From: Polytrichum commune
Taxonomy: Eukaryota; Streptophyta; Polytrichopsida; Polytrichales; Polytrichaceae
Direction of reading: 5' to 3'
DNA length: 64,000 bases
NCBI GenBank assembly: GCA_950295325.1
Contig: OX485809.1
Coordinates: forward strand, 31,434,001 to 31,498,000
Part shown: piece by piece, positions 21,329 through 58,559 of the stretch
Position numbering within the stretch: the first letter of the stretch is position 1
How the letters are laid out: every line of letters starts with the position of its first letter
Translations under genes and position numbers: made by a program
The notes under the pieces: generated by a model
Databases searched by the model: none
What the model saw: the letters and a program-made list of their open reading frames with translations, nothing else
What the model was told of the DNA's origin: nothing

Positions 21329-21356
21329 AACACTATATTCGTTATTTGGAGACTTT
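21329..21356 (+). repeat. Left terminal inverted repeat of element B
   Basis: These 28 bases start AACACTATATTCGTTA and match the reverse complement of 57816-57843 at all but one position. A GAGACT-type partial stem follows, as at the right end. Confidence 0.85.
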
Positions 21357-21638
21357 TTGTTAATTTTGAGACTATTTAAGGACGTGGCTTTCACATTTAT
21401 AGGAATGAAAACACTAAAAATATGCTATGTTCCCAATTTTGGAAACAAATAAGAGACTCAAATGCATGGAACTACACATTAACAATAAGAAAATGGGATA
21501 TATGAAAACATTTGCATATGGAAAATCAATATCATATTTATTGAATAGGGGTTGAAGTACAAAATGCAAGTGGAATATCCAATATTAGGCGAAAGTCCTA
21601 GAAACATAATTCCACAACTACATGTATGTTAATATAGC

Positions 21639-22535
21639 CTATACGTTCGGTTCATGATTACGACTCACTACTTTTGCTTTTGCAATACTATTATTAGCAT
21701 TTACGGCCGTTTCACGTTCCTTTGCTTTCATGGCCTCCATGGCTCTAAAGATCTCGGGTCCGCGGCTGTAACCTTGTTTATTTGTTGACCCCGAATATGC
21801 GCCATTTGCCCATATTTGCCGACCCCCTTCCGAATAAGTGGAATACGAATGCGTTTGGGAAACCGAACGTCTTGCACTCTTCCGTAGGGCCAAACAACGA
21901 TCAGACTCGCAAGAAGCTGTCTTCAGTGTTCGCCTATCCAATGACGAAGTCGATGATGCCCGGCCCACATTCGTGTACATTGGGGTCTGAACAATGACCA
22001 TAAATATATATAATGAAGTGGGTTAGTATAAGTGGTTACAAGTTACGGATGGAAGTCCGAAAAACCCAAGAAGTTGAAATGCACTAATACACGGAAATCA
22101 TCAAGGAAAAACTTGAGAATGCCAATAGTTGGGCACCTTCGCCTTTGGGGCGCTGGTTAGAGCTTTTGGGACATCGACGGGTGTAGATACAAGCCCGAGA
22201 GGGACGTTCGCAAACGCCGGGACATCAATTTGGGGTTCATCCATGCAAAGGCGTCTGGTCGACCGTGGGTTACGGACGTGCTTCTCACTGCGGAGGGGAG
22301 ATGGAGATGGACTTGGAGAGTAATTGAGTTTTGCAACCTTTGCAGGAGGGCTATCCACGACTCCGTCTTCAAATCCGGAGTCTTTGGAGTAATCAACAGC
22401 AAAGGCAGCATCGACGGCCGAATATTGGAATAGTGAAGGCATTGCAACGTCGCTCATACCAAGGGAAAGGGAGCCGGTGTCTGCCTGAGATGCAGACATG
22501 CCATTGACGACACTTTTGGGTGCTTGGTGAGGCAA
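21639..22535 (-). CDS. Two further coding exons of unknown function near the left end of element B
   Basis: The exons 22535-22113 and 21986-21639 are bounded by plausible splice sites (acceptors CTTAG and TTCAG, donor CAA/GTTTTT) and join in frame (phase 0), giving about 256 residues. The first is rich in Ser and Pro, with an SPSPSPSP run and Lys/Arg clusters. The second ends in a charged helix-like segment (MEAMKAKERE). Phase 0 at each junction matches the neighbouring ParB/HAD gene, so these may be its last exons. I found no clean donor before the HAD stop at 22628 to connect them. No known domain is recognised. Confidence 0.45.
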
Positions 22536-22627
22536 CTAAGACACAAAAATACATTACAAAGATAAGGGGAGAAATGTTAGATATTTACATGGAGAGTCCA
22601 AGTACAAACCCAAAATCATCAAAGTTT

Positions 22628-25600
22628 TCATATTAATTTATTGAGTCTAGCGTAGCCGTACAATCTCCTAAATTCCTCATCTTGTGGGCCTAGAGGCCTA
22701 TTGCCAATTGGGTTGGAGAGCACAAAATCCGGGACACTTCCGGGGTGATAGGCAAGCCTCCTAATGTAGGGTCCTAGTTCACTCTCTAGAAAGTTGTCAT
22801 TTCTATCGCTTTCCCAAGGATCCGGGAATATGCAATTGCCCGGGGGATTGAGAATACTCTTTGCCGGGCTGTCGTCAATGAGGAGTGTGTTATCTGGGGT
22901 GGGCCAACAACCGTGGGGAACCCCCTCCAACATAGGGACGCCCACCCAGAGGTTCTTCCTCAGGACCTTTAAGAATTGAGGCCCACGACCTCCTCCAACC
23001 TTGGGTACAATATTGCCACTACGGTCATAGAGGTCATCGCAGTGTTCTTGACCGAGAAGCAAACATGGCATTGCGAGTTCTCGGAAAAGGAAACCGACGA
23101 TGGCCTTCGTGTTGTCCATGAGCATAGAGCTCCAGATGATGACATGGGCGAAGCCAAGGACCTCACGAAGGAAGCTCCTCAAACCGGGGCGGGCACGTAC
23201 AACCTTCTTATTTATGAGAGTATCGAAATGTCCGCCGTAATCCATGTCTTGTGGACTACGGAAGGGCCCCTTGGACGCACTATTCGAGATATGTTTGGAT
23301 TGACAAAGCACCCCATTGAGGTCAAATATTATGAACGGTTTCATCATGGGCGCGCTTGGTTTTCCCGCGGGGTTGCGACATATCTCCGACGGACCCTGTG
23401 ATGGAACATTCTATCTAGGTAAATGGTACTACTCAAGAAAACCAATTGACAAGCATGGATAAACTCAACACAAATTATAAGGCCAAAAATAATCCGAACC
23501 ATCCAGTTGAAAAATTGGTATTAATGTAATTGGTGATATACATTTGGTGAATAATATACATTGTCGCAAAAAATATCTGTTGAAGTTAATGGAATCTATG
23601 CTAACAAAATTGTATCCACCCGCCGGGCGAAGTCGAGGATTGAACTCGATAATATACACACGCCACGAAGGAGGCAGACAAGGAAGTTTTGGACGCGCGT
23701 CCGTAACGTGGGAGGCATGCTCAAAGGTTGATTACCTCTTCAAGGGCGAGGTCCGCGCCAGCAGTGCCTCCCTCACCTGGCCCCGTCATGGGCACAGGAT
23801 CCGGACGCGCGTCCGCAAAATTGTCCAGATCTTCGACCACCAACAAGGTGTCTCCAGCCGCTTGCGACCCTTGAGTATCCACGTAAGGCTGATCCTCATC
23901 TGTGGAGTCTTGGCTGCCCCGCATATGTACATCTTCATCGCCGATGGGGGCATTGCCATGTCACGTGCCGGTATCTCCTCCACTCCTGTAGGATGAGAGG
24001 AGGGCTCCTCTGGAGTGGCGACAACAAGGGGAGAGGGCGGGACAATCAACGCGGGGGCTGGATAAGCATGCTCGGGTATATACACCGCATGGCTACTAGA
24101 CGGAGGCCGCATGAGAGTGGGGGGCATAGACATGACGGCATCGGGAGCTGTATAGACTACAGGGGGTCTTGCCTGCAAGCTCTGCATCAGGCTCATAAAT
24201 TGTTGACTTTGGGCCAAGAACTGTTGATTTTGGGCCATGAGATCGGCGTGCCTTCGAGCAGACTCCAACCTAGCTTGCTCCATCTCAACTTGGATGGCGG
24301 CCATCTTTTTGGCGTGCTCCTCGTTAGCTTCTCGAAGCCGTTGGTCAAGCTCTTCCTTCATTCGCCTCTCCATCTTCTCGTCCAATTCGGACACTGACAT
24401 CGGCTCTTTCTTCACCTTGCCAGGTTCCGTAGGCAAGGCAGAGATGGCATTGTGAATCCTAATCTCATCCTCGTCTTCATCGGAGAGCTCCAAGACCGCG
24501 CCTTCAGGGTATTCGTTGTATGGCGTCTTGTTCCTCTTTCGTCGACTCTCACGATATAGAGAGATATCAGGCCTCAATATCAACTCCAGCACATGCCTCC
24601 CCTCCATAGGGGGTAGATCTGAATGTTGAGATCCCCCTCCAGATGAAGCGGTGCATCCGCCTTCTGCCGCAAGGTCCACATCCTTCTCGGCCATAACTCC
24701 TAGAGCACGAGATGGACCCGCAGTTGAGGGAAATCCAACTCGAGAGGTGGGAGTCCCAAAAGGTGAGAGAACAGGGGTATGAGGGACCCTTATCGGAGTG
24801 AAGTTCACGCGTGCCTCCTGCGCATCCGTGTCGTCTGTTCCCAGCAGGAAAGCACTTGGATTAATTGGGTCGCGAACAAGGCCGTGTAAAGGCTCCTGTG
24901 TGGAGGGTTGCGCTCTTGGGGAACTGGGATCTTGGTCCTCTTCAGGGTCTGTCTCCATTCCGGGCATTGCCTCTTCTCTAGAAGAAAGAGGCACAACAAG
25001 ATGGGGTGTAAGGACGTCCATGATGTCCTGGATATCCATTTTGGAGGCCATTACCCTGTGAGTATGGGCGTCATCGTAGTCGGAATCTTGCACAAAAGAA
25101 TTCACCTGCAAGCCAAGCATCTGGACCATAACAAGAAAATTAGATAAGAACAATAGTGGTGATTGCATATAAATGAGGCTAGATGTCAACACGTTATACG
25201 GACGCGCGTCCGTAAAACCACCACTCAAAAGTTGGACAATTTTACGGACGCACGGTCGTAAAATTCACATGCACCTGATACTGGGTTTTTACGGACGCGC
25301 GTCCGTAAAATAACTATGCAAAAGATAGGTGGGTTGAAAGACAAACAAATACTCACCAGTGCTGCATACATAAACTTCGTGCCTCCGAAGACGTTGTAAA
25401 CTGTCTCACTCATGACAGTTAAAGCCTTCAAGACCCCTATATAAAAGTCCATCCGGAGCTCGAACGCCGGATAGATTGCATGCATTGTCTCCTCAACAAG
25501 CTCCTTGGGATGTGGTGGCGGCAACGAATAGACTTTCCTGAACACCTCGTGTGGTTTAATGGGCAATCGCCCAGTTGGGGAAGACTTGCGTGTTAAGAAA

Positions 25601-28098
25601 TAAAGCTGCACAGCTCCCACTTGCTTCACCCCCCTTGCCTCTTGAATGAAAGTGATCCCTTCTGTCTTCGCTGGGATGTAGGTGCTGTGGTACATATCGT
25701 ATTCGAGGTCCATCGTTGATGTGTACAGATGGACAATGGATGTGGACCTCTCTTGCTCTACAATCCATAACCACACATGAGGCTCGAAGAGGGCAGGCGA
25801 GCGATAGCTCTTGAAGGCTTTTAAGAAGGGCTTGTAGAAGGGTGCTCCCGCAACGTCTTGCTTCCATGCTCCGGAAATTGCACGAAAATCAAAAATGGCG
25901 AAAGGGCAACCCCTGGGGTCATCTCTCACAAAGGCTCTTGAAGCATGGGTGTCCCATGCGCCGAACTTCATGCCCTTTGCGACCGTGCAGAATCTTGCAA
26001 ACCCTCCAAATTTCGCGTTCTTTTTCCTATCGAGAAAGTGAACATACAACCATGCCTCCCTCTCGTCGATGGATCCCTTCTTTTCGTTCCTTCTGGATCG
26101 TTGGGCAAGGAAGGATGATGCCCCTCTTATCAAAGCTCGCATTGAGACGCCATTGATGTGGTATTCACCCTTCAGCTTCCTCCAATTCTCCCACACGATC
26201 TCACCATCACTATTAATGAGGTTGTGGGTGGGTAGCAATTTGCTAATCTCCCTTACAGCCATGGTCTTCTTCTTTCTGTAATCGCACCATTCCTTAATGT
26301 GGTACGTGGATGGCTTCATGTGCTTCGGCCGCTTCAGAAAGATTTTGGGATAGGGCAGAGTTCTTCTAGGAGTTTCTAGAAGAATGTGTTCTGCTGCCCT
26401 GTACAGCTCCGAGTCCATCAATCCTTGGAGGGGACGAAAGAACTCTCGCAGGATTGGTGGTACCTTAACTTTTGAGTCGCTCTTGTAGGTGTTCTCCGTA
26501 TCTGGATTGACAAGGTCGCCGTTGTTGTGGGCATCGAAAAGTCGCAACCATATTGACCACGTCTCTTCTGTTGCAGTGATGAGCTTGAGTTCGCCTTTTA
26601 ATTCATGCACTGTTTTCATGCCGCTTGTCTTCATGTCTATACTCGAGAACTTTGTCAATATGGCATTGCTGAATGTCTGCAAGAGGCGCGAATTGCAAGA
26701 AATCAGAACATTGAATTCAGTACAGATTAAATTCAAATATTTGAATAAGTGGGAGGAGAAGGGCCACATTTACGGACGCACGTCCGTAAATCTATTTGAA
26801 TAACATACCTGCCATTTTGGGTTCTTCACGACAACATTATCTCTTTCTTTTGGGGGACATTCGTGCTCCACCCACAAGGTCCTCCCAGCCACGATGTTGG
26901 CTGCCCATGAAGCCTCGAACTGCCTCACTTTATTCCCCTGGTTCATGAAGGCAGATATTGCTATGAGTTGGTTCGAGTCCTTGGAATGCACGACGAATGC
27001 CTTCCAATATCGGATTGTCTCCTTTAATGGGCTTTTCCACTCGTCGTCTTCAAGGAGAGCTTTTGCAGCCATTACACTATGTTGGCCGTCGATAATATAG
27101 AACTCTCCATTCTTGAGAATCGGCCAATTTTTTTCGTTGACTTCAACGATAGGATCCTTTGGTGTCACACAAATGGTTTGCCTGTCAAACTTGGGGTTGT
27201 TCATGATGTTGTTCATTTGCCACCATACACCGCTTTCTTCTTTTGCTCTGGTATTCATACTTTCGGTGCCCTTGTGGCATTTGTAGACGTCTACTTCGAA
27301 AGTAAAATACCTACCAAGGGGCCAGCATCCCTTCGTCTTCTCATCGAACTCTTGGAATATTTTTGTTGAGAGTTCGGCGTCAGGGCGTTGACCCTTTTTG
27401 AGGAGTGGAGCGACAGTCAATGTAGAGCTGACATCCGGACCCTCTGTTAGTCCAGAGTCCATCTGCGAGTGAGAGCGTTTACTCGCCTGTCTGCTCCCTC
27501 TTGATGCACCACTCTGCGAGGGCCTTGAGGATTCCGGCACTGGTTTAGGCACACGCTTGGGTCGTTCAGGAACGACTTGTTTTTTCTTCTCTTTCCCCTT
27601 TCTGGCCTCTAGCAAGGCTCCATTTACTCTTGTTACATTGTTCAAGAGTTGTCCAAGCCGCTTACCCGTCCAAGGTGCATTGCATGCATAGTCTTGGAAC
27701 TCCGTCTGGAGATTGAAGCAAGCCGCATCTGTACTAGCATTCTCACACTCATTTTTGTTGAAGGGGTGGTAGGATTCGTGCAAAATGAAAGTGACCCGAT
27801 CTTCTTTCTTCTCAAGGTCTATTACTACATAATCCCCTTGTGCCACTGCACACTCTACTGTCCACGATTTAAGCTTTATCCACTTCTCAGCTTCATCTAT
27901 GTCCGTCTTCATTTGATATGCAAATCTAAGCACAAATATTTCTTTCTCGTCCTTTTCTACCAATACTGTCCAATTATCCACAATTTCATCTTGTGGCTTG
28001 TAATGGTCGTTGGGACTTATGTCTTTGATGGCTTCTGGTAGCGGAGGAATGAGAGCTTCTGCGAACATCTCAATTGCATGTCTCTTTTTAGATGCCAT
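22628..28098 (-). CDS. Multidomain protein: ParB-like, methyltransferase-like, coiled coil, FCP1/NIF phosphatase
   Basis: Four exons, 28098-26809, 26676-25357, 25120-23736 and 23395-22628, join at consensus GT-AG sites, all phase 0, for about 1587 residues. Exon 1 contains FYIIDGQHSVMAA (DGQH at 337-340), the signature of the ParB/sulfiredoxin-like fold. Across the exon 2/3 junction (about 858-880) NVFGGTKFMYAALMLGLQV resembles motif I of amino-methyltransferases; no DPPY motif is seen. Exon 3 has a coiled coil (about 1110-1185) and an acidic tail. Exon 4 is an FCP1/NIF-type HAD domain with FDLNGVL, RPGLRSFL and LLIDDSP; the usual second Asp is Asn. One base appears missing in a C run (plus-strand G at 23946-23950), and the frame shifts there. 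The ATG sits right after a splice acceptor, so 5' non-coding exons are likely. The domain combination is new to me. Confidence 0.7.
23691..23814. repeat. Two palindromes at the end of ParB/HAD exon 3
   Basis: GGACGCGCGTCC occurs at 23691-23702 (in intron 3, continuing as GT on one side only) and at 23803-23814 (inside coding exon 3). The second is flanked by C on the left and G on the right. They show that the palindrome can lie in coding sequence. Confidence 0.85.
25198..25309. repeat. Three palindromes in intron 2 of the ParB/HAD gene
   Basis: ACGGACGCGCGTCCGT occurs at 25198-25213 and near 25291-25306. Between them, 25241-25262 is a decayed copy with a CACGGTCG change. All lie between the donor at 25356 and the acceptor at 25121. 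Confidence 0.9.
26769..26790. repeat. Palindrome in intron 1 of the ParB/HAD gene
   Basis: The arms TTTACGGACG and CGTCCGTAAA are perfect, with spacer CA. It lies in the 132-bp intron between 26677 and 26808. Confidence 0.9.
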
Positions 28099-28152
28099 CT
28101 GCAAATGATAAGATAGATAAGTTAGAATTCTTGGCAAAAGATATAGATCATA

Positions 28153-28300
28153 CTTTACGAACGCGCGTTCGTAAAGTTTTCCAAATTGTCTCAATTACAT
28201 TTTTGGATCCAAATGAAAAGATACATTTCTTCCAAATACGCATAACGCGTATATTATATACTCAAATATCTCTATAAGTTATGGACGCGCGTCCGTAAAC
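28153..28300. repeat. Two palindromes just 5' of the ParB/HAD start codon
   Basis: The first, 28153-28176, is a perfect 24-bp palindrome in which both arms carry the same change (CGAACG and CGTTCG instead of CGGACG and CGTCCG). The second, 28279-28300, has TATGGACG on the left and CGTCCGTA on the right. They begin 55 bp upstream of the ATG. Confidence 0.9.
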
Positions 28301-28349
28301 TTCGCAAAGATAGTATGGTGGTAAATATCAATGTATTCAAGTTACGGTT

Positions 28350-28490
28350 AATATTTTTTTTGAGAGTCTTGTTTCACACCTACATTTTTTTTGAGAGTCT
28401 TGTTTCTCACCTACATATATTTTTGAGAGTCTTGTTTCTCACCTATATATATTTTTGAGAGTCTTGTTTCTCACCTATATATATTTTCCA
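28350..28490. repeat. Short tandem repeat GAGAGTCTTGTTTCTCACC
   Basis: About four units of 37-39 bp contain TTTTTGAGAGTCTTGTTT and a CACCTAYAT stretch. The same motif recurs inside each 135-bp unit of the adjoining array. Confidence 0.8.
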
Positions 28491-28495
28491 CAAAG

Positions 28496-28932
28496 TTTAC
28501 GGACGCGCGTCCGTAAACTTTGAGTATTATAAAGGCTATTTTAATATGCCTAATATTACAATATTTGGCTTCGTTTGCGTAATATATTGTTTGAGAGGCT
28601 TGTCTCTCACCTACCCAAAGATCCACAAAGTTTACGGACGCGCGTCCGTAAACTTTGAGTATTATAAAGGTTATTTTAATATGCCTAATATTACAATATT
28701 TGGCTTCGTTTGCGTAATATGCGGTTTGAGAGTCTTGTTTCTCACCTACAGGAAGATCCACAAAGTTTACGGACGCGCGTCCGTAAACTTTGAGTATTAT
28801 AAAGGCTATTTTAATATGCCTAATATTACAATATTTGGCTTCGTTTGCGTAATATGTTGTTTGAGAGGCTTGTCTCTCACCTACACAAAGATCCACAAAG
28901 TTTACGGACGCGCGTCCGTAAACTTTGAGGAT
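28496..28932. repeat. Array of 135-bp units each bearing a palindrome
   Basis: Palindromes at 28496-28517, 28631-28652, 28766-28787 and 28901-28922 are exactly 135 bp apart. Each extends to a perfect 32-bp palindrome when the flanking CAAAG and CTTTG are counted. The DNA between them is nearly identical and AT-rich. Frames open across it only because 135 is divisible by three. Confidence 0.95.
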
Positions 28933-28974
28933 TATAAAGGCTATTGTAATGTTTGCGTATTCCAATGTTTTCAT

Positions 28975-31147: not shown

Positions 31148-31153
31148 TCATTA

Positions 31154-33600: not shown

Positions 33601-33625
33601 CCTATTATGGCGCCGCAAATCACGG

Positions 33626-34470
33626 AGGTTTACGGACGTGCGTCCGTAAACCTTAAACCTCTTGCTTGATTGGATATCTATTGTTGTGAGAATTATACTT
33701 CAGCTATTTCATGTACATTGAGGTTTACGGACGCGCGTCCGTAAACCTTTAACCTCTTGCTTGATTGGATATCTATTGCAGTGAGAATTATACTTGACCT
33801 ATTTCATCTACATTGAGGTTTACGGATGCACGTCTGTAAACTTTTGCACCTTTTTGTTCCATTGTTCGGTATTGCACCTGAGCTGACATCATGACCACTT
33901 GCCATGTATAGTATACCAACGAGACTGTATTGTCATGAAAATTTTCTGACTCACGTCCAGTAACCTAAACCTATTTGTGCTAGTAATGAGGTACAGAGAG
34001 GTTTACGGACGCGCGTCCGTAAACCTGCAAACCTTTGGTTCCATACTTTTCACTATGTGCCATATAGAATATTACATTGAGACTGTACGGTCAATGGAGG
34101 TATAAGATCCCTAAACCCTAAGCTTACATCACCCTATGTGTCATAGTATAATATTTTGACATTCATAATACACAGTAGGAACCTGGCACCTGGACATCTT
34201 GGTTTCCTAAACCTCTGTGTGTCTTGCACAACACTGACTTTTGACATTCGGATGTTTGCGGACGCACGTCCGTATACCTATGTTGTATAGTTTGCGAAAA
34301 CATTTGCGCATGATATTGACCTCTTTGACCATGAAGAGATTTACGGGTGCGCGCCCATAAAACTGTCATGTTTTTGTTGTCTGGACCTTTCCGCCGACTA
34401 TGAACAAATAAAGACATATGTATGCGCGTGCTTGCACTGATAATGTTGTTACATGGAGATATACGTACGC
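33626..34470. repeat. Palindrome cluster 5' of the element B DUF7869 gene
   Basis: Seven sites occur near 33628, 33721, 33820, 34008, 34256, 34340 and 34452. All vary GGTTTACGGACG-NN-CGTCCGTAAACC. The second and fourth are perfect. The sixth has GGG in place of GGA with the matching CCC on the other arm. The others carry C-to-T or G-to-A changes. Short repeats (CTCTTGCTTGATTGGATATC) accompany the first two. Confidence 0.9.
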
Positions 34471-36080: not shown

Positions 36081-36098
36081 TACGGATGTACATCCGTA
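36081..36098. repeat. Palindrome in the intron of the element B DUF7869 gene
   Basis: TACGGATGTACATCCGTA is perfect over 18 bp. Relative to the core, both arms have changed symmetrically (GGACG to GGATG and CGTCC to CATCC), which CpG decay on both strands could also explain. Confidence 0.85.
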
Positions 36099-36526
36099 AG
36101 TGTTTGTTCATTTTCTTGGCCTGCTTGCGGAAAAATTGAATTTCCTTATCATAAATGATATTGGAATGTACTTCTCATTTGTATGTCTTAATTCAGGTAT
36201 GATCGCACATAGCCATGTGGACGTCAAGTATGCACATTATGGCTTGGATTTCTATCCAGGCGACGCCAATCATACCGTAGGGTCTTTTGCAAAACTTCTA
36301 CGAGATCTTGAGAGTCCGCCAACATCATCCTCTCGCGCTCTTTTTGTTGGATGTGGAACAACACCGATTTATGAGGCTGTGCTAGAGGGGAAAGAAGTAT
36401 GTCTATCGTCACTGCAAGAACCGCCTGAACAAACCGTTCTTGCTAAACCTTTGCCTCCAACTCTACATGTGCAACTGGACAATTGTGCCAAAGACAACCA
36501 CTACAAGAAAACCAGCCCAATGTGAC

Positions 36527-37410: not shown

Positions 37411-37415
37411 CAGTC

Positions 37416-42126: not shown

Positions 42127-42139
42127 TTGTCAATGTAAG

Positions 42140-43520: not shown

Positions 43521-43529
43521 ACTGCACAC

Positions 43530-44595: not shown

Positions 44596-44679
44596 CTGTG
44601 CATATATCATCACAAGTGCCATGTCAAAAGAGAAACACAATATTGATGTCATCAGGAATACCTTCTCTGGATGTGAATT

Positions 44680-45985
44680 ACCTCAAAGGAGCGCACAAAA
44701 TTCGTGAAGAGAGTGGGCAAGAAAGGCTCCCAATCAAAAGAGCTTCTTGAGTGCTTGATGCAGCGTGCAATAAGAGAAGCCCACTGTAGATTCCAATACC
44801 GACAATTGGGAAGTGCTGCCCAGAGGCTAAAGCACTCAGATATCCAAGCACTGTAGACAGTCATAAACCCAAGCAGATTATAAGATGTTGCATACCCAGA
44901 GATGTTATGTCACCAAAAACTTGTCCTCCTAAACAACATCTTTCAGGGTACTCCTGAGCATCTAAGGATTGTACAATTTCATCCACACTAGGACTAATCC
45001 AGGGGGGATCTGGGTAAAACCTCCCACTCCTAACACTCAAAAGCCTGTAAGCTACAAGTGGCTCTCTGCATACCTTGGGGATTTATTTAGTCCATGTTCT
45101 ACTGCCTCCATCATAGTTGGAGGCATGAAGAGTGTGATGAAACCCATAGCTTCCAAAGATGAGTTATGTACCACGTCATCAAGGGCAGGTCTGCAGAAAG
45201 GAACAACCTACAAATGAGATATTCTTCTCTACTTCTAAAGGGATAACACAAACCACAAAATGGTCTAGGCAAGAAATAGATGTTGCAATGCACTATCTGA
45301 ATTTGATTTGTCCTTGAAAAAGACAATAGTTACAAATAAAGGCATCCAAATCAATGCTCAATGACATTTCAATAACCTAAAGAGGCTCTTTTTACGTCTG
45401 AAAAAATATTCAATAAATAAGAAAACACAGGCTCTTGGAGTTTGTGGAAATATGTTGCGTTGATGATAGATGCTGTCTAGGATTAAGCAAGGATCTAACA
45501 AGAACAACAAACACAATAGTGACTGGTCTCAACCAACAATCCCACTATCTGTAGCAACATCAGTTCAAGATATAATCACCGCCATGAAAATGTACGGATG
45601 GCACACAGTTTTGAATGAGATTTTTCATGTTGCAGAATTAGTACATCCCACAACAACTAGAATGGTAATGAATGTTGTCACATCAAATTCAATAAAAGCC
45701 TTAACGTACAATCTGTAAAGCAATGGGTGGCATCCGTTAGTATGGAGATGTGATTAATTAGGTATTTGGCACCCATCTACAAGACCACAACAATCTAAGT
45801 TGTTCGCATGATAGCAACATCTCACTTTGTTTGAGGGCAGAATGTGGTTCATTCTTTCTACATAGAGAACATACCGGAATTCAGACCAAATTTCAATTGT
45901 TGAATCAGGTTGGAAGTAGTGACGACAGCAGCGTACAAGTGTAGTAATAGAGTCCAAGTGGTGCATCTTTAATCCAAGTCCTTCA
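44680..45985 (-). pseudogene. Captured exons of proteasome activator PA200 (PSME4/BLM10)
   Basis: Three pieces in gene order occur: about 45985-45875 (HLDSITTLVRCCRHYF, EIWSEFR), 45190-45074 (HNSSLEAMGFITLFMP) and 44850-44680 (ECFSLWAALPNCRYWNLQWA..., FLPTLFTNF). They resemble successive stretches of plant PA200, from the residues around its EIWSEF block. Exon borders have consensus splice sites. The parent protein is about 1800 residues, so this is only a fragment. Confidence 0.7.
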
Positions 45986-46284
45986 TAGGGTTACCGTCTG
46001 AGGATTTCAGAAACAAATCACACGCTCAAGATTCATAAACTAGATTCTTAGTTTTCCAAAACAAGACTCCAACCTCTACCTTAAGAGTGTGAAGCAGCAT
46101 TGACTCGTGCTACACTAAGTCAATACAACCAACACTAAAAATCAGCATTTGAAGGCATCAAGTGAAAAGGAACCATGGTGATGAGATGGAAAATTTCCAA
46201 AAGTACAGAGAGTCCAAAATGCCTAGGGTCGGTAAAGCAGAAAAGATGAAAAAAGCAAAATCAATTTTGGAAAGATTCACAAAC

Positions 46285-46368
46285 CTGGATGAAGCGAGGC
46301 TTCATGTGTCCCCATTTGGCCAAATGTCGACCTTCATGGTAGCCTGGGACTGAGGCAATTAATCGAAC
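46285..46368 (-). pseudogene. Captured exon of tyrosyl-DNA phosphodiesterase 1 (TDP1)
   Basis: An exact 84-bp exon (acceptor CTACCAG, donor CAG/GTTTGTG) encodes 28 residues including VRLIASVPGYHEGRHLAKWG. This fits the conserved VPGYH...KWGHMKLR block of plant TDP1. No other TDP1 exon was recognised nearby. Confidence 0.6.
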
Positions 46369-46559
46369 CTGGTAGACAAGTTAATCAGAGCCGGGACAAG
46401 TTAATCAGAGCCGAAGGCTGGTTTAGGAGCAGATATAAAGGGTTACATAAAGGATGTGTACATACATTGAGTTAGGAATAAAATGAAGCTCCACTTACAT
46501 ACAGGACTACAAGATACAAATGAATGCAGAAGTGCAAATTGAGAGGTGCAAGTTATCTG

Positions 46560-47480
46560 AGGGTATACCTAGGTTTTCAATAAGCTTATGCTATGAGCCA
46601 GCACTGGTGATTGCAAGTGAACTTGAAAATAGACTAAGAATTTCATCAAGATTGTTTTCAGAAAGAGTCAGCATGCCCTTAGAGGGAGTGCAAAACCTCA
46701 AAATTTATCGAATGCATTGCAGTTGCTATTGGATATTCTGCAGCATTGTCCCCTCTTAACCCAACAACAAAGGTGAAGTCCAGGACATAACATTCACCTG
46801 GTGGGAACAGAAAATGATGCTGAAGACAAACACAGTCATGCACTAGAGACTGGATTCTGCGAGTACGTTCAGGAAAAAGGTCAACATTCAGGCATGACAG
46901 ACAAAAATTAACTACATCTACAAAGTCTATTGTGATACAAAGAGCTCAGGTGCAGGTTAGACTACCACAACAAAATTTAGTTGGTAATCCTGAACAAAGG
47001 TTGCATATCTAGCACATCATTGCAATGACCTCCACCATGAACTAATTATGCATGTGTCATCTCCCAAAGCAACCAGCTGTAGGAAAATATGATACTCACA
47101 ATAAAACAACAGAAGCCTTCTCCATAGAATTCGCATGGACCTTGATTGAAGTTTACTCTTTCAAGGTGACACTTGCATTTCCTGAAAAAAAATCTGTTAA
47201 TTAGGCAGCCATGGCCATCAGGGAAAGTATATAAATGAGAAGGATGACACATGAAGAACTTTCATTTAAGATGCAAAATCTTGCAGTGAAGGAACAACAT
47301 TTACAGGTACAAGTAATAAATGGCATCTATAATGACACTTCTCCAAAGTGAGTTTAGAAATTCAATCAGTTGTTCACCTGCAAGGATTCTGCAAGTGCCT
47401 CTCTACTTGCTTGAACTTCGTTACCTTCTCCACCTTCAATGCCAGATCCAGGGCCTTCTTTAATGCTGCCACTGTCATCA
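46560..47480 (-). pseudogene. Further exon-like segments of unknown origin
   Basis: A segment at about 47474-47380 reads AALKKALDLALKVEKV... between a good acceptor and donor. A segment at about 47180-47100 reads KCKCHLERVNFNQGPC.... Another near 46800-46690 reads GECYVLDFTFVVGLRGDN before a stop. All lie on the minus strand, in the same direction as the recognised captured exons. I cannot name the source genes. Confidence 0.35.
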
Positions 47481-48041
47481 CATGTACAGAACATACAAGA
47501 ATCAGCAAATGCGGTTTCATAGCTGGAAGTGACTAATTTGTGAGCAGTTGCAATGAAACACAAATACGCATCAACTCTTAACAGACATCAATTACTCATT
47601 GTAGTAGATACATCCATACCTCCCTGAGCTCTTTAACGGTTCCTTCCAGCATGCAAGCCAAAAGAAGCCCAGAGCAGAGTAACAACCATTTGAACCATTT
47701 ACCCTTATAATACCATCACCCCAGTGGATTGAAATTCTCGAACACCATAGCTAAACCCTAAACCCCTAAAGCAGCCTAGACAGTAGCAATTAGATTTGTA
47801 CCTTAATGTGACTAGAAACCCTAAACCTGAATCTTTGCATTTCACTTTCTTTACAGATCCCTAAACCCTAAAAGCGGCCTACTTACTGGCGGCGTTCAAA
47901 CGTAGTGGTGCTACTCTCTGATCTAAGCAGCATTAAGTTCACAAATTGACGCTGGCAACGGCTCTCACCTGATTTTCAAAATGGCGATGGCAAGGGCGCT
48001 TGAATGCTTCCCACGCCTCAATGCTCCTGCTTGCTCTGGCG

Positions 48042-51000
48042 ATGGAGACGCCCACGAACGCCGTTGCAGCGCCTTCGGCAACTGAAGAGGACGACACCAA
48101 CTCCAAGGACCGGGGTTCGGAAGGATATGAGGACCAGGCATCGGAGGAAGGGTTTGGGAGAGACGAGGACGCCGAAGTGCCCGAGTACGAGAGGCTGCGG
48201 CAGGCGAACTTACGGAAGAACGCCCTCAAGCTACAGGAGCTTGGAGTCCCCATTCTGGCAGCATCGTTGAAAGAGTCAACAATCACATGCACGACCGAAG
48301 CGGCAACAGGAGAGGGGAATCACGCGACCGTGAAGAGCACCCGCCGCGCCGGCGCCAGCAGCCTCGAAAACCCACGTTTAGGGTAAGGAAACCCTAAACC
48401 GTAGCTCCTAAGGTCATCCTCCTGGCCTCCTCTATTTAATGTGAGCATAACTCCTTCATTGAGTTTGGTTTCGACCTCACTAACTTCAGGTTTGCTTGAC
48501 CTGCAGAGAGGATTACAGTGGGGGTTTGGAGCTCGTGCATCGGAGTAAGCGACTAAACAAAAACCCACCAAGATCTGGCACAACGTTGCGGAGTGCAAGG
48601 AAGAAGCACAAGGACGCGGAATCGAAGGAATCGAAGGAGGGCGGGCGGAGCGTGAATAGCAGTTCCAAGGAGTGGCACAACGAAGAGGAGAACACGGACA
48701 ACGAAGCTGACATCTGGCTTGAAGACGAGCATGGCAATGGCGATGATGACACCTTGCCAGTAGGAGTGGGAAAGCCACATCAAAGCAAGCAAAATCCTCA
48801 GGTGAGTGTACTAACTCACTGTTGGGATTTCTTCACATGCTGTAAGCATTCATTTGGGGTGGGTAATCGTCAAGTGTAGCAACGATGTGTCGCTACACTG
48901 AGTTAGATTTAAGGTGGAGCAACGTCTGGGCAGTTTTTGGGCATAGTCGATCAAGATAGGAAACCGCAAATAGAGGCTGCTATTGTGAGAATCACGAAGT
49001 CAAGACGACTTTTGGACCACAACAATATCATCAGTGAGGTGACCAAGCAGCTCCAAGCTCGCTTTTTACCGAACCCTGCTGTGATTAAAAAGCGCATTGA
49101 ATCCTTGATTGAAAGAGAATTTCTGGAAAGGGATAGGGTAGACAGAAAGTTGTATCGATACCTGGCCTGATGGGTGTAAAGACAAGGATGTTTGGTTAGA
49201 GGTGAGCAGAAGAGGTGCATGGATGAGTTTCTACTCCCTGGTGTGCTACTTGTTGCTCACAATAGTTTGCATGAGGGTAAGGGGAACCTTGTGTGAGCTA
49301 CATAAAATTTCTCCAGTTTAGGTGCATCAGAAAACAAAATCTTCAGTCCTTCCTGATGGATGTCCTACGCTGGCTACAACGTGCTCTGTGAGAGTGGAAT
49401 CCCTACTGAATTTCTAATAATTCTTGGTGGAAGGCTTAAGGTTCAAGTTCAAAACAAACTTCCAGTTTAATGAGCACCAGCAGGTTTAGGAAGGGCAATG
49501 TATATGCTTTGAAGTGTTCATTTTTGAAGCAACTTCTTTTTCAGGTGTAGACCGTCTTTCGATTTCTGTATGTCAATATTTTTCTTTGTATATTTACTCC
49601 TCAACTCACTTTTGACAGTATTCAAAAGGAAAATGGAAAGGTATATCCCAGCCTTCATGCGCCGTAGTATGGTTTTTGTCCTGTCCAGATCACAAGTGTC
49701 CATTTTCAATATGCACACTTATCTTTTTGAATGTCCTACTATTTCTGGCTCATCTTTATTCCGTTTTAGAATCTGTGAGCAGGCAGAAGGCGAACTTGCC
49801 TCATGAATGTTGAATTTTCTTTTCAAGTGCACAGGCTTCTCTTATCAATCAAGCCCTCAAATCTTGTGATGAACTAGGTCAGTTTGAAAGAAGAGTGGGT
49901 GGATTTTGCAATTGTATTTGTCATAGTTTCAGTGAAAGCACAGGTTTCTAAGTAGATTCAATGAAGGATGCCTGAGATTCCTCTAAAACAAACGGTAATT
50001 CTCATGAAGCCTGTCAATTAAACCAATTATTTATCAAACTCAAGTAGTTCATCTGTAACTAGCTGTCAGTTCTCCCCGGACCATGATGTGGAGCCTGCAT
50101 CCTGCAAGGCCAAGCCTGCCATCTCTATATAGACTACCAATAACTTGCAAGAGCACAACCTTATTAAAAAAAAAAAAAAAAAAATTTCAATTTATTTCAT
50201 TTCTCAAATTACCAAGCCCCTGCACACTTGCACTTCCCGATTTGTAGGCAGCTTGCCCAGCGAGCTATTGATTATCTTCATCAGCTTGTTTAGTATACTT
50301 GAGATGCGAAGTAATTGGAAAAGCTGACCTCTCTTAGTGCCTTCCAACTGTTAACCCTTATAGGTTCGAAAGGCCCGTTATGGGCCTGAAGGTGTCATAC
50401 AGAGGGGTTTAATGCTTGATTTTTTTTGCGATGGGTCAAAAGATACCATTTCTGAAATTCTCATGAAGCCTGTCATTGGCAGTCTTGGACAGTCCACATG
50501 TTTCTACTCTCTTTGTGGCCGGTCTAACAACTTACAAGTAGCGTTGTGCAATCACCAGGTAAGGTTTTTTTAGTAAATTTTTTTGGCATCCTTTGAATAC
50601 ACAGCTCAATCGAGGGGTTAGGGTAGCAAAATAAGATTGTCAATCAATGTATCTGGAAGGTTTGTCTATATCACAACTAAATCAAGATGTGTAATTCCAT
50701 GGGCTTGGAGAAGGTCACTTGGTCAGCCGCATCTTGTATTGAGCACTAACATTTCTTGCAGCGCTTCAGCTCTCTCTGGTATCGTTTCTTGTTTGCCTCT
50801 GCCTTCCTTATATATGGCTGGATTCATTTACAGGTGAATGCAATTAAACAATTTCCATAAGCTCCCTTTCCATGTTGACACCATGTTATGAGTCCACTGG
50901 AAAGAATTTCTTAGAAGTCTTTTTGTTGAAAAGAATATTTTCATTGGTTTTGATTGCCCAAGGCTGTCGACAAATTCAGACCTGTTTATTCTTCCCACAA

Positions 51001-54000
51001 TGACTTCATCTGGAACTAGTCACTGATCACTATATTATGGTTATGTATGCTGCATTCCTTAATGTAAAGTTTTAGTCTAGCTGCTATCACAGTGTTTGTA
51101 AATATATCTCAAATCGCATTGAAGAATTAATGATTTTGTCAGGCAATAATGGAAGGAAGACAAAAGGCATGATAGGTACACATTTATGAGGGTTTTGAGT
51201 GGGGACCTTCTTATATTTTTCGCTCATGTTTTGCCATTGTGAGCCCAGTATCCTCCCGACATCTCCGAAGGAAATGTTGGGGTTGTCGCTCGTGATGTTC
51301 TCTCGCTGGTTCTAGTCACATGAACTAAATAGTTGACTAACAAACTTCGTATGCGTTGAGCTCATGTGACTGGTTCTAGTCACATGAACTAAATAGTTGA
51401 CTAACAAACTTCGTATGCGTTGAGCTCATGTGACTGGTTCTAGTCACATGAACTGAGAGAACGACTAACCTTGACATTGAGATTGATGACCTCTGTATGC
51501 ACTGTGCAGGCCAGAGCTCAGACAACCGAGCCAACTGTTTGGGAGGTGCGCAAGCGAGGTCCTGGAGGTTGTGGAATTCCAAAACCCACGTCAACGAGCC
51601 TCCGTCCGCCGCAAAGAGACCGACCCCAACACGACAAACCCCTTAAGATGTCAGAGGATTCACTAACAGGGGAGCCCTTCGATTACTGCAATGACGTAGT
51701 ACCCGAGCTTCCTCGTGTTCAGGGAGGCAACACACCTCCTTCGCGTGGCCGAGGCCTCCCCCGCCACGGCCCCATTAGCAGCTTGGACCTTCAAATTGCA
51801 GAAAAACAACTCCAACTACTGCAATGGAGGCGAGCGATGGAGATGCAGGAGCCTGTGGTGAACTCGTCCACGTATTCCCCATCGGAGATGACTGAGAGCT
51901 TAGGTAAACCCTCATATTCCAGAGACCAGAAGTCCAGACGACGGGTCGCTTTGAAGCAACAACAGGCTCAGGAGGTCACTTTTCGAGATGCTGGAGGGCC
52001 CAGAAAACACCTTGTGGAGGTCGATCTGAGGGGACATCCACAAGGACAGAATCGTCCGCTGTGGCTAACATGTCTTCGAGGTCATGCGCAGGATATAGAT
52101 TTCAGCGAAGACAACTACAAGAATCTCAACACTTCGATGCTGCTCGCTGTTAAGGAACGAGTGGACAACACTTTTGAGTACCATGGGGGCCTTGGCAAGG
52201 TGACAGAGGAGGCTTTCCACAGCATATTGAAGGGCCAACTGAAGGTGAAGAGATATCAGTTGAAGAAAATAATGCAAGAAGGGAAGGACAAGCCAAAGCA
52301 CATTCGGCATGACCATTGGGTGAAGTTGTCAAAACTCATCTTGGAGGAGAAAAAACAACAGGAAGCAGAGAAGTTGCGATACAGCCGAGCCCAAGTGAGG
52401 AGGCCATCTTCAGCCGGGCGCAACGAAGAATATGTTCGAGCTCAATTGGTAAGTCTTCAGTCCATTACAGCTCCAACCTCACAACTTGCAAAACATCCGT
52501 ATCCACTCTATATTGGAGACCCACATGCAACATAATATATGATAACTTTCAACCTGGGAATAGAAACAACCTCCTCTTATGAATGAAGCCTCGTAATATA
52601 AGCGATACTCTTTGAGTACTCAATGGCAATTGCCACAATACAACTACCCTATTAGAAATATTTGCAATAGGCAGATAAGGTTGAAGATGATCTCAAAGGC
52701 TGTACAACTGTTCCAATGCGAAAACCAGGTCATGATGTGGCTAGGTGCAGTCATCAAATTAGAGTATGTGACTGTCATCAGTCATCACCAGAGTTTGAGT
52801 GATTTTTTTGGGTCATAGAGAATCTAAGATTTTGTAATCATGCAGCACTAACTATAAGATGTAAGATCTTTGTGCAGGCCATTAAGCTGGAGAGAAGCCC
52901 AACTAGGGTTGAAATTGAAAGGGAGCTTGCACGCGACAAAGATGCCCCTCGAAGACTCATTCCCAGAAGTGAAACCTCCCTGAGTAGCCGAGTGTCTGAT
53001 GCAAAGCCAAAGCAGGACAGTGATTGGCGGAGAGCGATGGAGAAGAACATTGAACGCATCATGCAGCACCTGCAGATTCCCGTTGTCACCCCCATGAAGG
53101 CAGCAAGTGCAAAAGGCAGCTCCAGCTCAGAGTCCACCGGCACCGACACTTCACGAAAGCCAGATCAGGTCCAAGAAAGCTTGATGCCACTGCAGGTACA
53201 AACATGACTTCATGTGTGTTGTCCAGCTCCTGTTGTTACAGCTCCTGCTTGGGCACTTCTTAAAATCTTGTGCCTTAGTTCTAGAAGAATTCACCATGCC
53301 AAGTTCGTTACTGTTTGTAGTCATTGATATGGAAACAGTGACCAGGCTTTACTAGATGCAGTCATGAACATCAAATTCGTGATGGATAATAGTAATGAAG
53401 CTAGAATATGTGACTTCTCACAGTCATCAGTTTAATATGTATTACTATCCATTGTCATTGAATTCAAATAAGTGACTGGAATTCACAAGAAGGTGAGGCT
53501 TTGTTGAACCCATTTACAAACATTGCTCTTGATCAAAAGCAATGACTGAGTGGATCCTTATACTTTGTAATCAACTGGGTTTGCAGCAAGTAGGGGAGTG
53601 CGAATCGCAGCCGGCAGATCCGGAGAAGGCAGAGGAGATTCCTGCAGTAGGTGACGTGAAGGACTCACATCCGTCGGGAACTTCGAGCAACCCTACAGGA
53701 GGCACTCCGGATTGTGGTACAGTGACCGTGGCAGAGTCAGGAGGACGTGCCCCAATTGTGTACTCAACTCGGAATTTGAGGGCTTCGAAGCCTGCAAAAG
53801 AGGACACTCGCACCCAGAAGAGAATGCGATTGACAGAGGTTGAGAAGCTGAAGAAAGATCCCGATGACACAAAGAAGCAAAGGGCAGTCCGGGGGAGCAA
53901 AGCTCAACCCGAGAAGAGCAAGGAGGCCAACATTGATAGTCAGCAAAACGCGAAAGGGAAGAGGAAGAGAAACATGAACGCAACGGTAAGTGAAGATGTA

Positions 54001-54806
54001 AGTGCACACATGCCATGTATTTTCACAGGTTTCTTTTTCTGAAAGCACCTATTCAGTGATTCAATCCCAACTGATCCATGTTTTGTGTGTGTTTTTTTTT
54101 ATAGGTTGTACAAGAAACCGAGGGCCCGGATTTAAAGAAGGGTGACCCTGTGATCCTTTCCAAAAACTTGAACGTACAGATAAGTGAACATGTAAGTGCC
54201 ATGTGCCACTTCCTGGAATGTTGTGCCTTAGGTCTTTAGAAATTCAATATGGCAAGTTCGTGACTGTTTGTAGACTTGTAGTATGGAACGAGCGACCAGG
54301 CTTGATTAGATTCAGTCATGAAGTTAGAATACGTGACTGATATTAGTAATGACGTTAGCATATGTGTCTTCTCACAGTCATAGCATTTGAATAATTCCCA
54401 TGAGCCTTGGAGATGTACATCGTTGTATAAAAGCAACAATTGAGTCCCAACTGATGCCTGTTTTGTGTTGTTATTATTATTATAGGTTGCACAAGAAGGT
54501 GAGGACCCGGAGTTCAAGAAGGGTGACCATGTGAGACTCAAGGGAATTCAAGAAGGGGAGGAGGATAAAGTTGTGGCACTCGGGAAAGTGCAGAATGTAG
54601 CTGGTGCTTCTCTACACGGGAGAACCATAATTGCAGGATGTGTGTCTGTAGAAGTGTTGAAAAGCCTAGATGACGACTACAGTTTGTTTGCACCCATAGA
54701 TCTAGATGATCCACCCGTGACCTTGGTAGGACAAGCAGTAGGGCACTTTATAATGTGGCCCACAGAGTTCATGGACATTGATATGTCCTTTTCCCAAGCA
54801 GTTTAG
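48042..54806 (+). CDS. TNPA-like second protein of the CACTA element
   Basis: Seven exons, 48042-48382, 48507-48801, 51510-52448, 52878-53195, 53587-53985, 54105-54191 and 54486-54806, join in frame at consensus sites for about 899 residues. Exon 1 has an acidic start and [20 protein letters not shown], a block typical of plant CACTA accessory proteins. Exon 3 ([18 protein letters not shown]..., then [20 protein letters not shown]) resembles the Transposase_24 (Ptta/En/Spm) region. Exon 5 is basic. Exon 7 ([33 protein letters not shown]) resembles DUF8039. Exons 6 and 7 begin alike and appear duplicated. The 2.7-kb intron 2 holds a captured CUL3 fragment. Its likely role is binding the subterminal repeats. 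The start is uncertain; 48021 is an alternative. Confidence 0.75.
48947..49170 (+). pseudogene. Captured C-terminal neddylation domain of CUL3
   Basis: The reading [20 protein letters not shown] ... [20 protein letters not shown] ... KLYRYLA and stop matches the CUL3 C-terminus, including the modified Lys in the IVRI-x-K motif. It begins at a plausible acceptor (GGCATAG) and keeps the natural stop. It sits in the same orientation inside intron 2 of the TNPA-like gene, so alternative splicing could add it to that protein. Confidence 0.85.
49171..51300. other. Rest of TNPA-like intron 2, no gene seen
   Basis: This is probably CUL3 3' flanking DNA plus element sequence. There is an A run at 50165-50182. 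I see no further coding segment. Confidence 0.4.
51305..51470. repeat. 62-bp tandem repeat
   Basis: Two full copies and one partial copy of CTGGTTCTAGTCACATGAAC... end just before TNPA-like exon 3. The unit contains the AGTCA motif of the subterminal regions. Confidence 0.85.
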
Positions 54807-54889
54807 AATGATGGAGTTCCAGTTGCAGAGCATCATGTTTCAGCTATGAAATTTTCTCTTTCAATGAAATGTGTTCAAATCATTTGCAT

Positions 54890-55933
54890 GACCTGACGCA
54901 GTGCTCACAACCGCACGGTTGACTTGTAATAGTCTTGATGTCTCATTATCCCACTAATCTGAAACTAAAATCTATGACTATGCACCGTAAGAATGGCAGA
55001 TTCGACTGCATGGCATACGTTTGCACTAAACTAAGGACAATCAAGTCCTAGACAGATGCTTCCGATTTAATATTGAACTTTGACTCCCAGTAGTGAAAGA
55101 AACGAGTATACAAGGACTCCATGCAGTCATCAGATGATATGGGTGACTATGTGTAGTGACGCACATTTGACTTTACAGTGTCGTATTCTCTTAGGTGTGT
55201 ATGATGTAATACAACCACAATCAAATCACTATGCATAGTGATCAAACCATTGCTATATTCTCTAAACCCTCACTATAATTAGTCATGCCCATCTCATGAT
55301 TTCAGTACTGGAGACCAATATCTCACTACAATTAGTCATAGCATTCAGAAGTCATTTCAGTATTCGTGACTATGTGTAGTCCAATAGATGCGACTTCAAA
55401 GAGTCTTATTATCCCAACTCAATTTATGACGTATTTCAGTCATCATCTCACTACTGTTCGTAGTGATAAAACCAGTCATGTATTGACTGATACCTCACTA
55501 CAATTTGTCATATCACCACGAAGCTATTTCAACATTTGTGACTATGGGGTGTCAAATAGATGTGACTTCAAAGAGTCGTATGCTCCCAACTCAATGTATG
55601 ACTACAAACAGTCACCATTTTACTACTATGCGTAGTGATGGAACTAGTCATGTATTGACACATACCTCACTACACATAGTCATGCCAAACAGACCCTATT
55701 TGCATATAGATGACTACATATAGTCATAGAGGTATGACTATATAGAGTCATATGGTCCAAGTCTCACTGCAGGTCCCGTTTTGAGGTCCCAAAACACTGT
55801 GGGAACGCAACATTGGGAACAAGAAGTGTCCGATATGACCCCTAGTCAGATTGTCCGAAGCGACTAACTCAAAATGACTACAAACAGTGCTAGTCACATT
55901 TTGGTTTATGCTGTATTGTAGTCATAAAACCTA
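54890..55933. repeat. Right subterminal region of the CACTA element
   Basis: Dense AGTCAT, TAGTCA and CACTACA motifs occur in both orientations, with two related blocks of about 170 bp (55366-55500 and 55535-55690). It mirrors the left subterminal region. Confidence 0.75.
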
Positions 55934-57186
55934 GTCACATTGGGCTGGTTTTCTTGTAGTGAACAAATGTCGATACGTGTTTTGTTTTTGGTCATTGCTC
56001 GTAGCCAAGGGCATTTTCAAAGAAGTGTTTGTGTCTTTTTTGATGGTTGGCCACACGCATGATGACATTGACGCTTCATTTGGACGTTGGAGTATGAAGT
56101 TGCACGAGGAGGATTTTCCGACGATTCCTCTTCTCATGAAATCATACATGGATTTGGATAATGTGCCAGTCATCCCGCATTTGATTGAAGAAGTGCCCGA
56201 TTTCAAAGCGTTTATCGAACCATTCATTCTTAAGGGAGGTGACCGTTTAGTGGGCCATACCAAGGCTCAACAATTCCGATTCTATATGCGTGATGATGGT
56301 TTGCCGGCCATGCAATTCAAAGTTTTGTGCACTTCCCCGGATTGGGGTCCAGAGGAAGGGATACTCGTATGGCGCCAAAACGAAGAGGGCAAATGTATGC
56401 TACCTGATGGGGAGCCGAAGCCTTGCAAATCCAACCCCATGAGGAATGGACCAGAAATCATCAAAGGTATATCCGGATTCATCCAATATTGGAAAGAATT
56501 GTGCGAGGAAGACATCACAAGGCGTGTTCAGGATACCCACGAACCATTGATTACGTACTGGGATCGCATTCGCTCAGCATTGCTAGCACCCAATGTCGAA
56601 ACACATTCATGTTTGACACAAGGTTTTTGGCCACAAAGCCGAGTGACAATCGTGGAATCTGAGGCCAATGTTCTTCGACAATGGGGACATCCGTGAAGAG
56701 TTCGTAGCGGACGACCATTATGTTGGCCCAGCTCGTAATCGTCCGGCTCCATCATTTCGTGTGGCTGTTGATTGCTACGAAGGGTATATGATCCTCGTAC
56801 GTCCTGGAGATGAGGAGCACCCTAAACCGATTTGGTTGGTAAAAACATTATCATCACCAAATTTTGTTCCAACTAGCCCAAATTTTCATCAAATTGAGGT
56901 GGAATATTGCCGTCCTAGCACCAAAGATCAAAATGTGCTCCGCACATATTTAGGGTGGGACACCAAAAAAGGTTTCAAATGGACAATGGACTCAGCATAC
57001 GAACCAATATGGATAAACACAGATACCATACTTTGTGCTTGGAAACCACGCAAAGGTTCCAAATCAGAGACAATGACCATCCCCCAAAAACATATAGATT
57101 TTGCCAAAGACAACTTGGCACGTATTGCTGCTGCAGAAAACGATGTCGAGAATGGAAATGAAGCTGAAGATGAAGATGGAGAATGA

Positions 57187-57815
57187 TATTGACGTAGGGT
57201 TGGACCACAATTATTTGAAATGTGTCTTGGTTTTTCATGAAATATATGACATTGGGGTCGAATACTATATTAGACACATTTTATAGCAATTTTATAGATT
57301 ACAATTATATATCATGATTGTATTGATTTACGGATGTGGAATCCAACTTCACATGCGCTATCAAATGTTTTTTATATATTTGTGTTTATGGATGTGGAGT
57401 CCAAACTATATAATTATATTGCAGATGCTAATTTGCAATTTCTTATACACACTGTCAAATTATTTTAATATTGTTGCGTTTGGGATGTGCCGTTCAATTC
57501 ACCCACAATTGGCTAAGATGTTATGTTTGGGATACGCATCCAAGAGTCCCTAGATATAAAATCAGATGGCTATTTATAGATTCGTTAATTTTGTTCAATA
57601 CAAAATCAAAAATACAAAATAATTGTGAATTTGTGACATTGGAATATTGTGTTGGCGTAGTTTTGATTATCCCCCAAATAATTACTATATTTAGAAACAT
57701 ATATATTCATCACATATGGATCTTTCGAACATTATGTTGCCATTGTTCCCCATGTTCCCTATGTTCACAATATTCACATCCGAAACTACGGGTCCAATTT
57801 ATTTTGAGACTTTCC
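57187..57815. other. 3' flank of the element B DUF7869 gene
   Basis: AT-rich non-coding DNA runs between the stop and the right terminus, 660 bp against 530 bp in element A. Confidence 0.5.
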
Positions 57816-57843
57816 AAAGTCTCCAATTAACGAATATAGTGTT
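57816..57843 (-). repeat. Right terminal inverted repeat of element B
   Basis: It ends AACGAATATAGTGTT and is preceded by an imperfect stem, TTGAGACTTTCC / AAAGTCTCC. Confidence 0.85.
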
Positions 57844-58159: not shown

Positions 58160-58280
58160 CTGCAAGACAAATTGAAATGGTTAGTATTTGTGGAATAAAG
58201 CAAGCTTGAGAAAGCTTGCACCTTGAGGCTATCGCATACGTTGATAGAAAGGATTTACATAATGTGAGGGATGAGTGTGT

Positions 58281-58523: not shown

Positions 58524-58559
58524 CTTTCCTGCTGTCATGTTGATAGGGGTTTGTCATCG

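Follow-up and report, generated by a model that had tools for sequence, protein, structure and literature searches.

VANDAL elements encode a Mutator-type transposase, and CACTA/EnSpm elements leave a 3-bp target duplication. Two papers on VANDAL elements of Arabidopsis report binding by VANC and loss of DNA methylation, and the target motifs turn over fast (PMC5735166, PMC10398659). Here, we describe a family of DNA transposons found in a 64,000-nt window (the whole stretch analyzed; positions 31434001-31498000) of contig OX485809.1 of the moss Polytrichum commune. Coordinates refer to the window; negative values and values above 64000 lie in its extension. The window contains E1, most of E2, and part of E3. 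E1 and E2 have the same genes beside different palindromes, which suggests a fast-changing, self-targeting control system.

The gene order of E2 is that of E1: a NIF open reading frame (ORF), exon 2 and exon 1 of a ParB-side gene, palindromes, and a DUF7869 gene. The two genes are divergent, as an earlier note on this DNA had described; the ParB-side gene is on the minus strand and the DUF7869 gene on the plus strand. Divergence between the two elements is unequal. Their DUF7869 proteins are 65-66% identical (58-70% for single pieces of the window copy of E1), whereas identity is 32% for ParB exon 1, 37% for exon 2, and 42% for NIF. The ends are common as well: a third copy of the E1 end sequence, with two mismatches, forms the right end of E2 (19597-19624).

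The window holds 31 near-perfect 22-bp palindromes (two of them outside the three families described here), compared with 0-1 in five shuffles. The E1 palindrome, TTTACGGACGCGCGTCCGTAAA, has 20 sites at ≤6 mismatches, all within E1 and none in the CACTA element nested there. The E2 palindrome, GTTTGGGTCGACCGACCCAAAC, has 16 sites in the window, none in the retrotransposon nested in E2, and the E3 palindrome, CTTCCTCTCGAGCGAGAGGAAG, has 10. Three shuffles for each palindrome yielded 0-1 sites. At ≤5 mismatches, the separation by element holds in the 124 kb extension, save for one E3-type site (3 mismatches) at 88356, outside the described elements. Sites occupy corresponding places in E1 and E2. 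On the ParB side, they lie directly ahead of the ATG and farther upstream, within both introns (1 and 2), and in the stretch that separates exon 2 from NIF; others precede DUF7869 on its upstream side. Some sites form tandem arrays (135, 95, and 88 bp). The earlier note had placed the palindromes 5' of both genes. The palindromes, far beyond chance in number, do cluster there, but further sites lie in the ParB introns, and the note had missed that each element has a palindrome sequence of its own.

Ten E1 relatives in the genome carry 20-21 E1 palindromes apiece at ≤4 mismatches, and nine of the ten have none in the fetched flanks. Palindrome-type peptides (such as LRTCVRK, FTDARP, and YERSFV) occur in the ORFs of 45 of 79 ParB-side homologs in a protein database. 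Of 56 such occurrences, 54 are located at an ORF end. The mean over 200 shuffles was 0.23 and the maximum 3, and the count for the DUF7869 set was 0 of 116.

A further relative came from another source. The sole match in the prokaryote genome set was a contig of a cyanobacterial metagenome-assembled genome (L001, CADCWO010000071.1; 55% identical) that carries a DUF7869 gene and is probably plant contamination. A fourth palindrome, GTTTAGCTCGACTCGAGCTAAAC, lies at positions 33, 113, and 488 of this contig, 5' of the DUF7869 gene, with decayed copies 3'. These sites are not visible to an even-length palindrome scan; an odd-length scan found three 21-bp palindromes, compared with 0-2 in 20 shuffles. 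GTTTAGCTCGACTCGAGCTAAAC is absent from the window at ≤6 mismatches, and no AACACTATATTCGTTA-like end was found in the 4.3 kb of L001 at ≤4 mismatches.

The inverted ends of E1 differ at one of 28 bases, in agreement with the earlier note, and three matches to the end pattern occurred in 0 of 100 shuffled controls. The common sequence at the left end starts with AACACTA in eight loci, including the window copy. The note had recognized a transposon family and overlooked the second and third elements of the window. Its single unit of 36.5 kb is ruled out by the nested CACTA element; since this accounts for 19.5 kb of the span, E1 proper is about 17 kb. The insertion splits DUF7869 exon 2, and thus the window copy is not intact. 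Target duplication is absent from this copy (GCAT and AATG at its two borders), and its flanks are unrelated: a long interspersed nuclear element (LINE) adjoins one end, and the opposite end is probably next to another element. Because of the missing duplication and the unrelated flanks, window E1 is probably, on the simplest reading, a recombinant of two copies. With a split transposase exon and mismatched flanks, the autonomy proposed for the unit is not supported for this copy.

The source genome (407.8 Mb, 64 contigs) was searched for relatives. The E1 left end has at least 40 matches (28 among the matches listed are at 100%, the window's own included), and the right end likewise has at least 40. 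Of the 40 left ends listed, 30 have a listed same-strand right end no more than 60 kb away, and for 24 of these the distance is 17.1-17.35 kb; the ends were thus not found independently of the genes, nor were the genes single-copy at unrelated loci. The ten copies fetched were the next listed after the window copy, each 100% identical across the leftmost 172 bases. Their lengths are 17.2-18.3 kb, and they include full copies with the same two genes, as the note had anticipated. Both ends and an exact 4-bp target duplication are present in 10/10 (TAGT, ACCT, AATA, TGTA, ACAA, CTTT, CAAT, TGAG, ATAT, and CTAC), with one mismatch in one right end, and the E2 duplication is also 4 bp. Nine copy pairs were compared, and over alignments of 12.7-17.3 kb their identity is 99.46-99.97%. 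In nine of the ten copies, no break interrupts the aligned DUF7869 exons; in the tenth, an insert of about 1 kb lies close to where exon 1 ends. Related empty sites were found for E2: its joined flanks match seven insert-free sites across the junction (best 79% over 175 bases, others 70-72%), the two remaining rows of that search being E2's own flanks. E2-type ends number 345 forward and 357 reverse genome-wide, and the reversed-pattern control gave 0. On contig 1, the 98 E2-type ends listed form 35 adjacent plus/minus pairs within 60 kb, of which 21 span 14.4-18.6 kb; these pairs presumably carry the same genes as E2. E1, E2, and their relatives are a family of high-copy cut-and-paste DNA transposons of about 17 kb.

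The DUF7869 protein is likely a DDE/D transposase, because its predicted structure has an RNase H/integrase fold and three acidic residues are invariant, their motifs being present in 12/12 sequences. The catalytic residues would be among these acids. The earlier note had proposed this protein as the transposase; the ends, the 4-bp duplications, the full copies with the same genes, and the predicted fold support it as the likely transposase of the family. Named relatives come from two moss genera, Ceratodon and Physcomitrium, and a distant relative is from Chara. A search of IMG/VR found no relatives, and the term DUF7869 was not found in the open-access literature searched. Foldseek on its own gave no match at E ≤ 0.001 for the models of DUF7869 or of the ParB-side homolog, and sequence searches of the PDB gave nothing useful, the weak interleukin-2 rows being probably due to chance.

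For the protein that the note called ParB-like/HAD, the HAD part matches the NIF domain clearly (E 4.4e-13) and lies in the last exon or a separate gene. The ParB signal is faint: E 0.016 to the PHROG ParB family, and a match to Pfam DUF6551, at E up to 1 (best 0.012), for 12 of 27 members. The note had missed that the modeled exon 2 product has the fold of a beta-class DNA N6/N4 methyltransferase. Exons 1 and 2 are joined in a single ORF in the homolog P0156. The catalytic (D/N/S)PP(Y/F/W) motif was not found in the ParB-side protein at the place of motif IV, a place assigned on our reading of the strand order. DFR, at least 90% conserved and present in E2 as well, stands where DPPY is expected, and the methyltransferase domain is therefore probably inactive; GG(S/T)K is kept.

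These observations can be joined in one scheme. The DUF7869 transposase would act on the AACACTATATTCG ends and produce the 4-bp target duplications. The divergent gene would supply a DNA-binding protein, ParB/methyltransferase-like and apparently devoid of the catalytic motif. E1 and E2 have the ends and the transposase in common, and they differ in the palindromes and the ParB-side protein. Reading of the palindromes by this protein would be the simplest connection. It would thus recognize the CpG-containing palindromes of its own element in both promoters and in the introns. Since the sites lie in promoters and introns, a role in expression or silencing is suggested rather than recognition of ends; binding may keep the element transcribed or counter host DNA methylation. 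Between subfamilies, protein and palindrome would change together, and transposase and ends would stay common. We consider this explanation as a whole, with the ParB-side protein as an anti-silencing or regulatory factor, to be somewhat favored.

The palindromes may have other origins. They could be binding sites for transposition, at which the transposase or an accessory protein assembles the ends, as at the TNPA sites of Spm. CACTA elements have repeated subterminal sites, and the many tandem-spaced copies per element resemble these; however, the main E1 clusters are internal (at about 6.9-7.6 and 12.4-13.4 kb in a copy of 17.3 kb) and occupy promoters and introns, and E1 and E2 have different palindromes despite common ends and similar transposases. 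This makes such a role unlikely. Hairpins in RNA, formed in 5' leaders and introns and used in processing, splicing control, or small-RNA production, would suit the several sites that are intronic or directly before an ATG. The arrays also extend upstream of the ATGs, though, and one sequence across both genes of an element would remain unexplained, so that hairpins, too, appear improbable.

A passive origin, in which tandem and dispersed duplication and gene conversion homogenize each lineage, accords with the tandem arrays. Isolated sites at matching intron and leader positions of E1 and E2, and the palindrome-type peptides at the ORF ends of homologs, suggest instead selection or a targeted process, and we give the passive origin little credence. 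Least probable, and very unlikely in our view, is that the palindromes are parS-like centromere sites through which the ParB-like protein would partition an excised circle of the element or keep it in the cell. The DGQHS motif, the weak ParB matches, and the clustering of sites near the ParB-side gene would fit, but no ParA-like gene was recognized in the subset of E1 ORFs scanned, some sites lie inside the introns of the ParB-side gene itself, and nothing points to an episome, for which no search was made.

Several points weigh against recognition of the palindromes by the ParB-side protein. The co-variation rests on two complete elements and one partial element, which are few for a claim of co-evolution, and the fast divergence of ParB and NIF may have other causes. 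In E3, homology of the ParB-side ORF (57846-58367) is not significant (hhalign E 0.18; 1.6 bits, a score exceeded by at least 8 of 2000 shuffles). The ParB assignment of the exon 1 product is weak, and the ParB portion of the P0156 model is mostly below 60 in predicted local distance difference test (pLDDT) score. ParB exons 1 and 2 are free of stops and frameshifts in only four of the ten copies; in three more, the sole stop is at residue 430, the predicted exon edge, and in three the exons are broken elsewhere. The flank of one of the ten E1 relatives contains three E1 motifs. The regular expression for the peptides was composed after inspection of ORF tails, and the L001 motif was derived from L001 itself.

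Table 1. Positions of the three elements, their genes and palindromes, and nested insertions.
Feature	Position	Strand	Evidence
E1, DUF7869 transposon copy	21329..57843		terminal inverted repeats (TIRs); 10 full-length relatives in genome
E1 left TIR AACACTATATTCGTTATTTGGAGACTTT	21329..21356	+	matched inverted ends
NIF/HAD phosphatase-like ORF	22628..23410	-	PF03031 E 4.4e-13; E2 counterpart 42% identical
Three E1 palindromes, ParB intron 2	25195..25309		motif scan
ParB-side exon 2 (ends approximate, by eye), methyltransferase-like domain	25357..26676	-	51 homologs; model of P0156, residues 642-861
E1 palindrome, ParB intron 1	26769..26790		motif scan
ParB-side exon 1 (ends approximate, by eye), DGQHS motif, weakly ParB-like	26806..28098	-	28 homologs, alignment
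Six E1 palindromes TTTACGGACGCGCGTCCGTAAA 5' of ParB gene, four in 135-bp tandem array	28154..28922		motif scan
Seven E1 palindromes 5' of DUF7869 gene	33629..34481		motif scan
E1 DUF7869 gene, exon 1 plus start of exon 2 (limits are those of the ORFs)	34548..36498	+	similar to E2, homologs
E1 DUF7869 gene, rest of exon 2 (first bases are the CACTA target duplication)	55962..57186	+	PF25273 E 4.7e-27
E1 right TIR	57816..57843	-	matched inverted ends
Nested CACTA/EnSpm element	36499..55961		28-bp TIR, target duplication AAC, Transposase_21 and DUF4218
E2 (left end at -7534, 7.5 kb left of window)	1..19624		target duplication CAAA, inserted in LINE ORF
Three E2 palindromes GTTTGGGTCGACCGACCCAAAC 5' of E2 ParB gene	104..196		motif scan
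Ty3/gypsy long terminal repeat (LTR) retrotransposon nested in E2 spacer	4296..15130		LTRs 99.945% identical over 1813 bases, target duplication GTACT
11 E2 palindrome sites 5' of E2 DUF7869 gene	15193..15825		motif scan
E2 DUF7869 transposase	16004..19092	+	two exons, no stop
E3, partly in window	57846..64000		third palindrome 58290-59769; DUF7869 at 66888-69255 (extension)

The ParB exons and the DUF7869 gene of E2 have no stop within the aligned parts, and the Ty3/gypsy insertion in this element is very young. A LINE-like ORF fragment (19608-21332, minus strand) is broken by E2, and the same stretch holds the start of the E1 left end. The DUF7869 gene of E3 is 51.7% identical over its main piece. 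An ORF at 57786-58367 is interrupted by E1 and adjoins the third palindrome array (58281-59775, 88-bp repeats). A left-end-like sequence, AACACTATATTAGGTA, at extended position 79142 may belong to another subfamily. In the transposase region of the nested CACTA element, tandem arrays at 39592-39988 and 38346-38587 are possibly intronic.

Ginger elements, which are integrase-like transposons, have an rve-type integrase sequence and a 4-bp target duplication. The duplication length of the E1 family fits, and the predicted fold resembles integrases; in the exon 2 ORFs, Pfam recognized DUF7869 and nothing else. A kinship with CACTA through the CACTA in the ends is not supported: the duplication is 4 bp in the E1 family (10/10 copies) and 3 bp in the nested CACTA, C(2)C is absent between the second and third acids of the E2 protein, and there is no similarity to the nested CACTA transposase, of which a partial piece was compared (a weak test). 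A survey (PMC12730594) describes the CMCT clade as having duplications of 2-5 bp and as marked by C(2)C and H(3-4)H between the second D and the last E, and Zisupton (KDZ) as having an 8-bp duplication, unlike the 4 bp of the E1 family. The E2 DUF7869 segment between the second and third acids has no CxxC, and its only histidines, read by eye, are in HTH, so that the CMCT feature was not found there. Like CACTA/EnSpm and the CMCT clade in that account, the E1 family has CACTA in its ends, several proteins, and internal repeated sites (PMC12730594). No such element was found in the open-access literature on giant plant ParB transposons, moss superfamilies, and bryophyte palindromes; Repbase and Dfam lay outside the comparison, and a name found only in such a library is possible. 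DUF7869 is a domain without an assigned function; that of a transposase is now likely, and the ends and target duplication that go with it are known.

Transposable elements with DNA methyltransferases have precedents: retrotransposons of dinoflagellates and charophytes reportedly acquired C5 DNA methyltransferases. Those are retrotransposons with a DNA methyltransferase (DNMT), whereas the moss element is a DNA transposon and its methyltransferase fold is of the N6/N4 type. Fungal DNA transposons encoding TET/JBP likewise carry a DNA-modification-related gene; their protein is a dioxygenase, whereas the fold here is that of a methyltransferase, apparently lacking the catalytic motif, and the transposases differ (PMC12730594). 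Phage ParB-N6_N4 methyltransferase fusions combine the same two parts, whereas here the gene is a spliced plant gene in a transposon, with a faint ParB part and a catalytic motif apparently lost (PMC12704722). More tentatively, and with less than even confidence, we propose that a phage-type ParB/methyltransferase carried by a separate DUF7869 superfamily became an anti-silencing factor with sequence specificity. It would co-evolve with the palindrome, giving each subfamily a private address code in its promoters and introns, with hundreds of such ends in one 408 Mb plant genome. Such protein-palindrome pairs could reveal the way in which long palindromes are recognized by a methyltransferase fold. 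With copies that are nearly identical, and with intact exons in some of them, the evasion of silencing by transposons becomes testable in moss.

The resemblance to VANDAL/VANC appears to be one of working, not of membership. A Pfam scan of 10 ORFs matched the E1 and E2 transposase ORFs to DUF7869 only, with no Mutator-type match in these. As in the VANDAL/VANC accounts (PMC5735166, PMC10398659), an element-encoded protein goes with noncoding motifs that are often tandem and strongly divergent between related elements; the transposase family (DUF7869), the palindromic sites, and the 4-bp duplication are different, and anti-silencing is here a proposal. The moss family may thus be a second, unrelated case of transposons marking themselves with lineage-specific sites that are read by their own protein.

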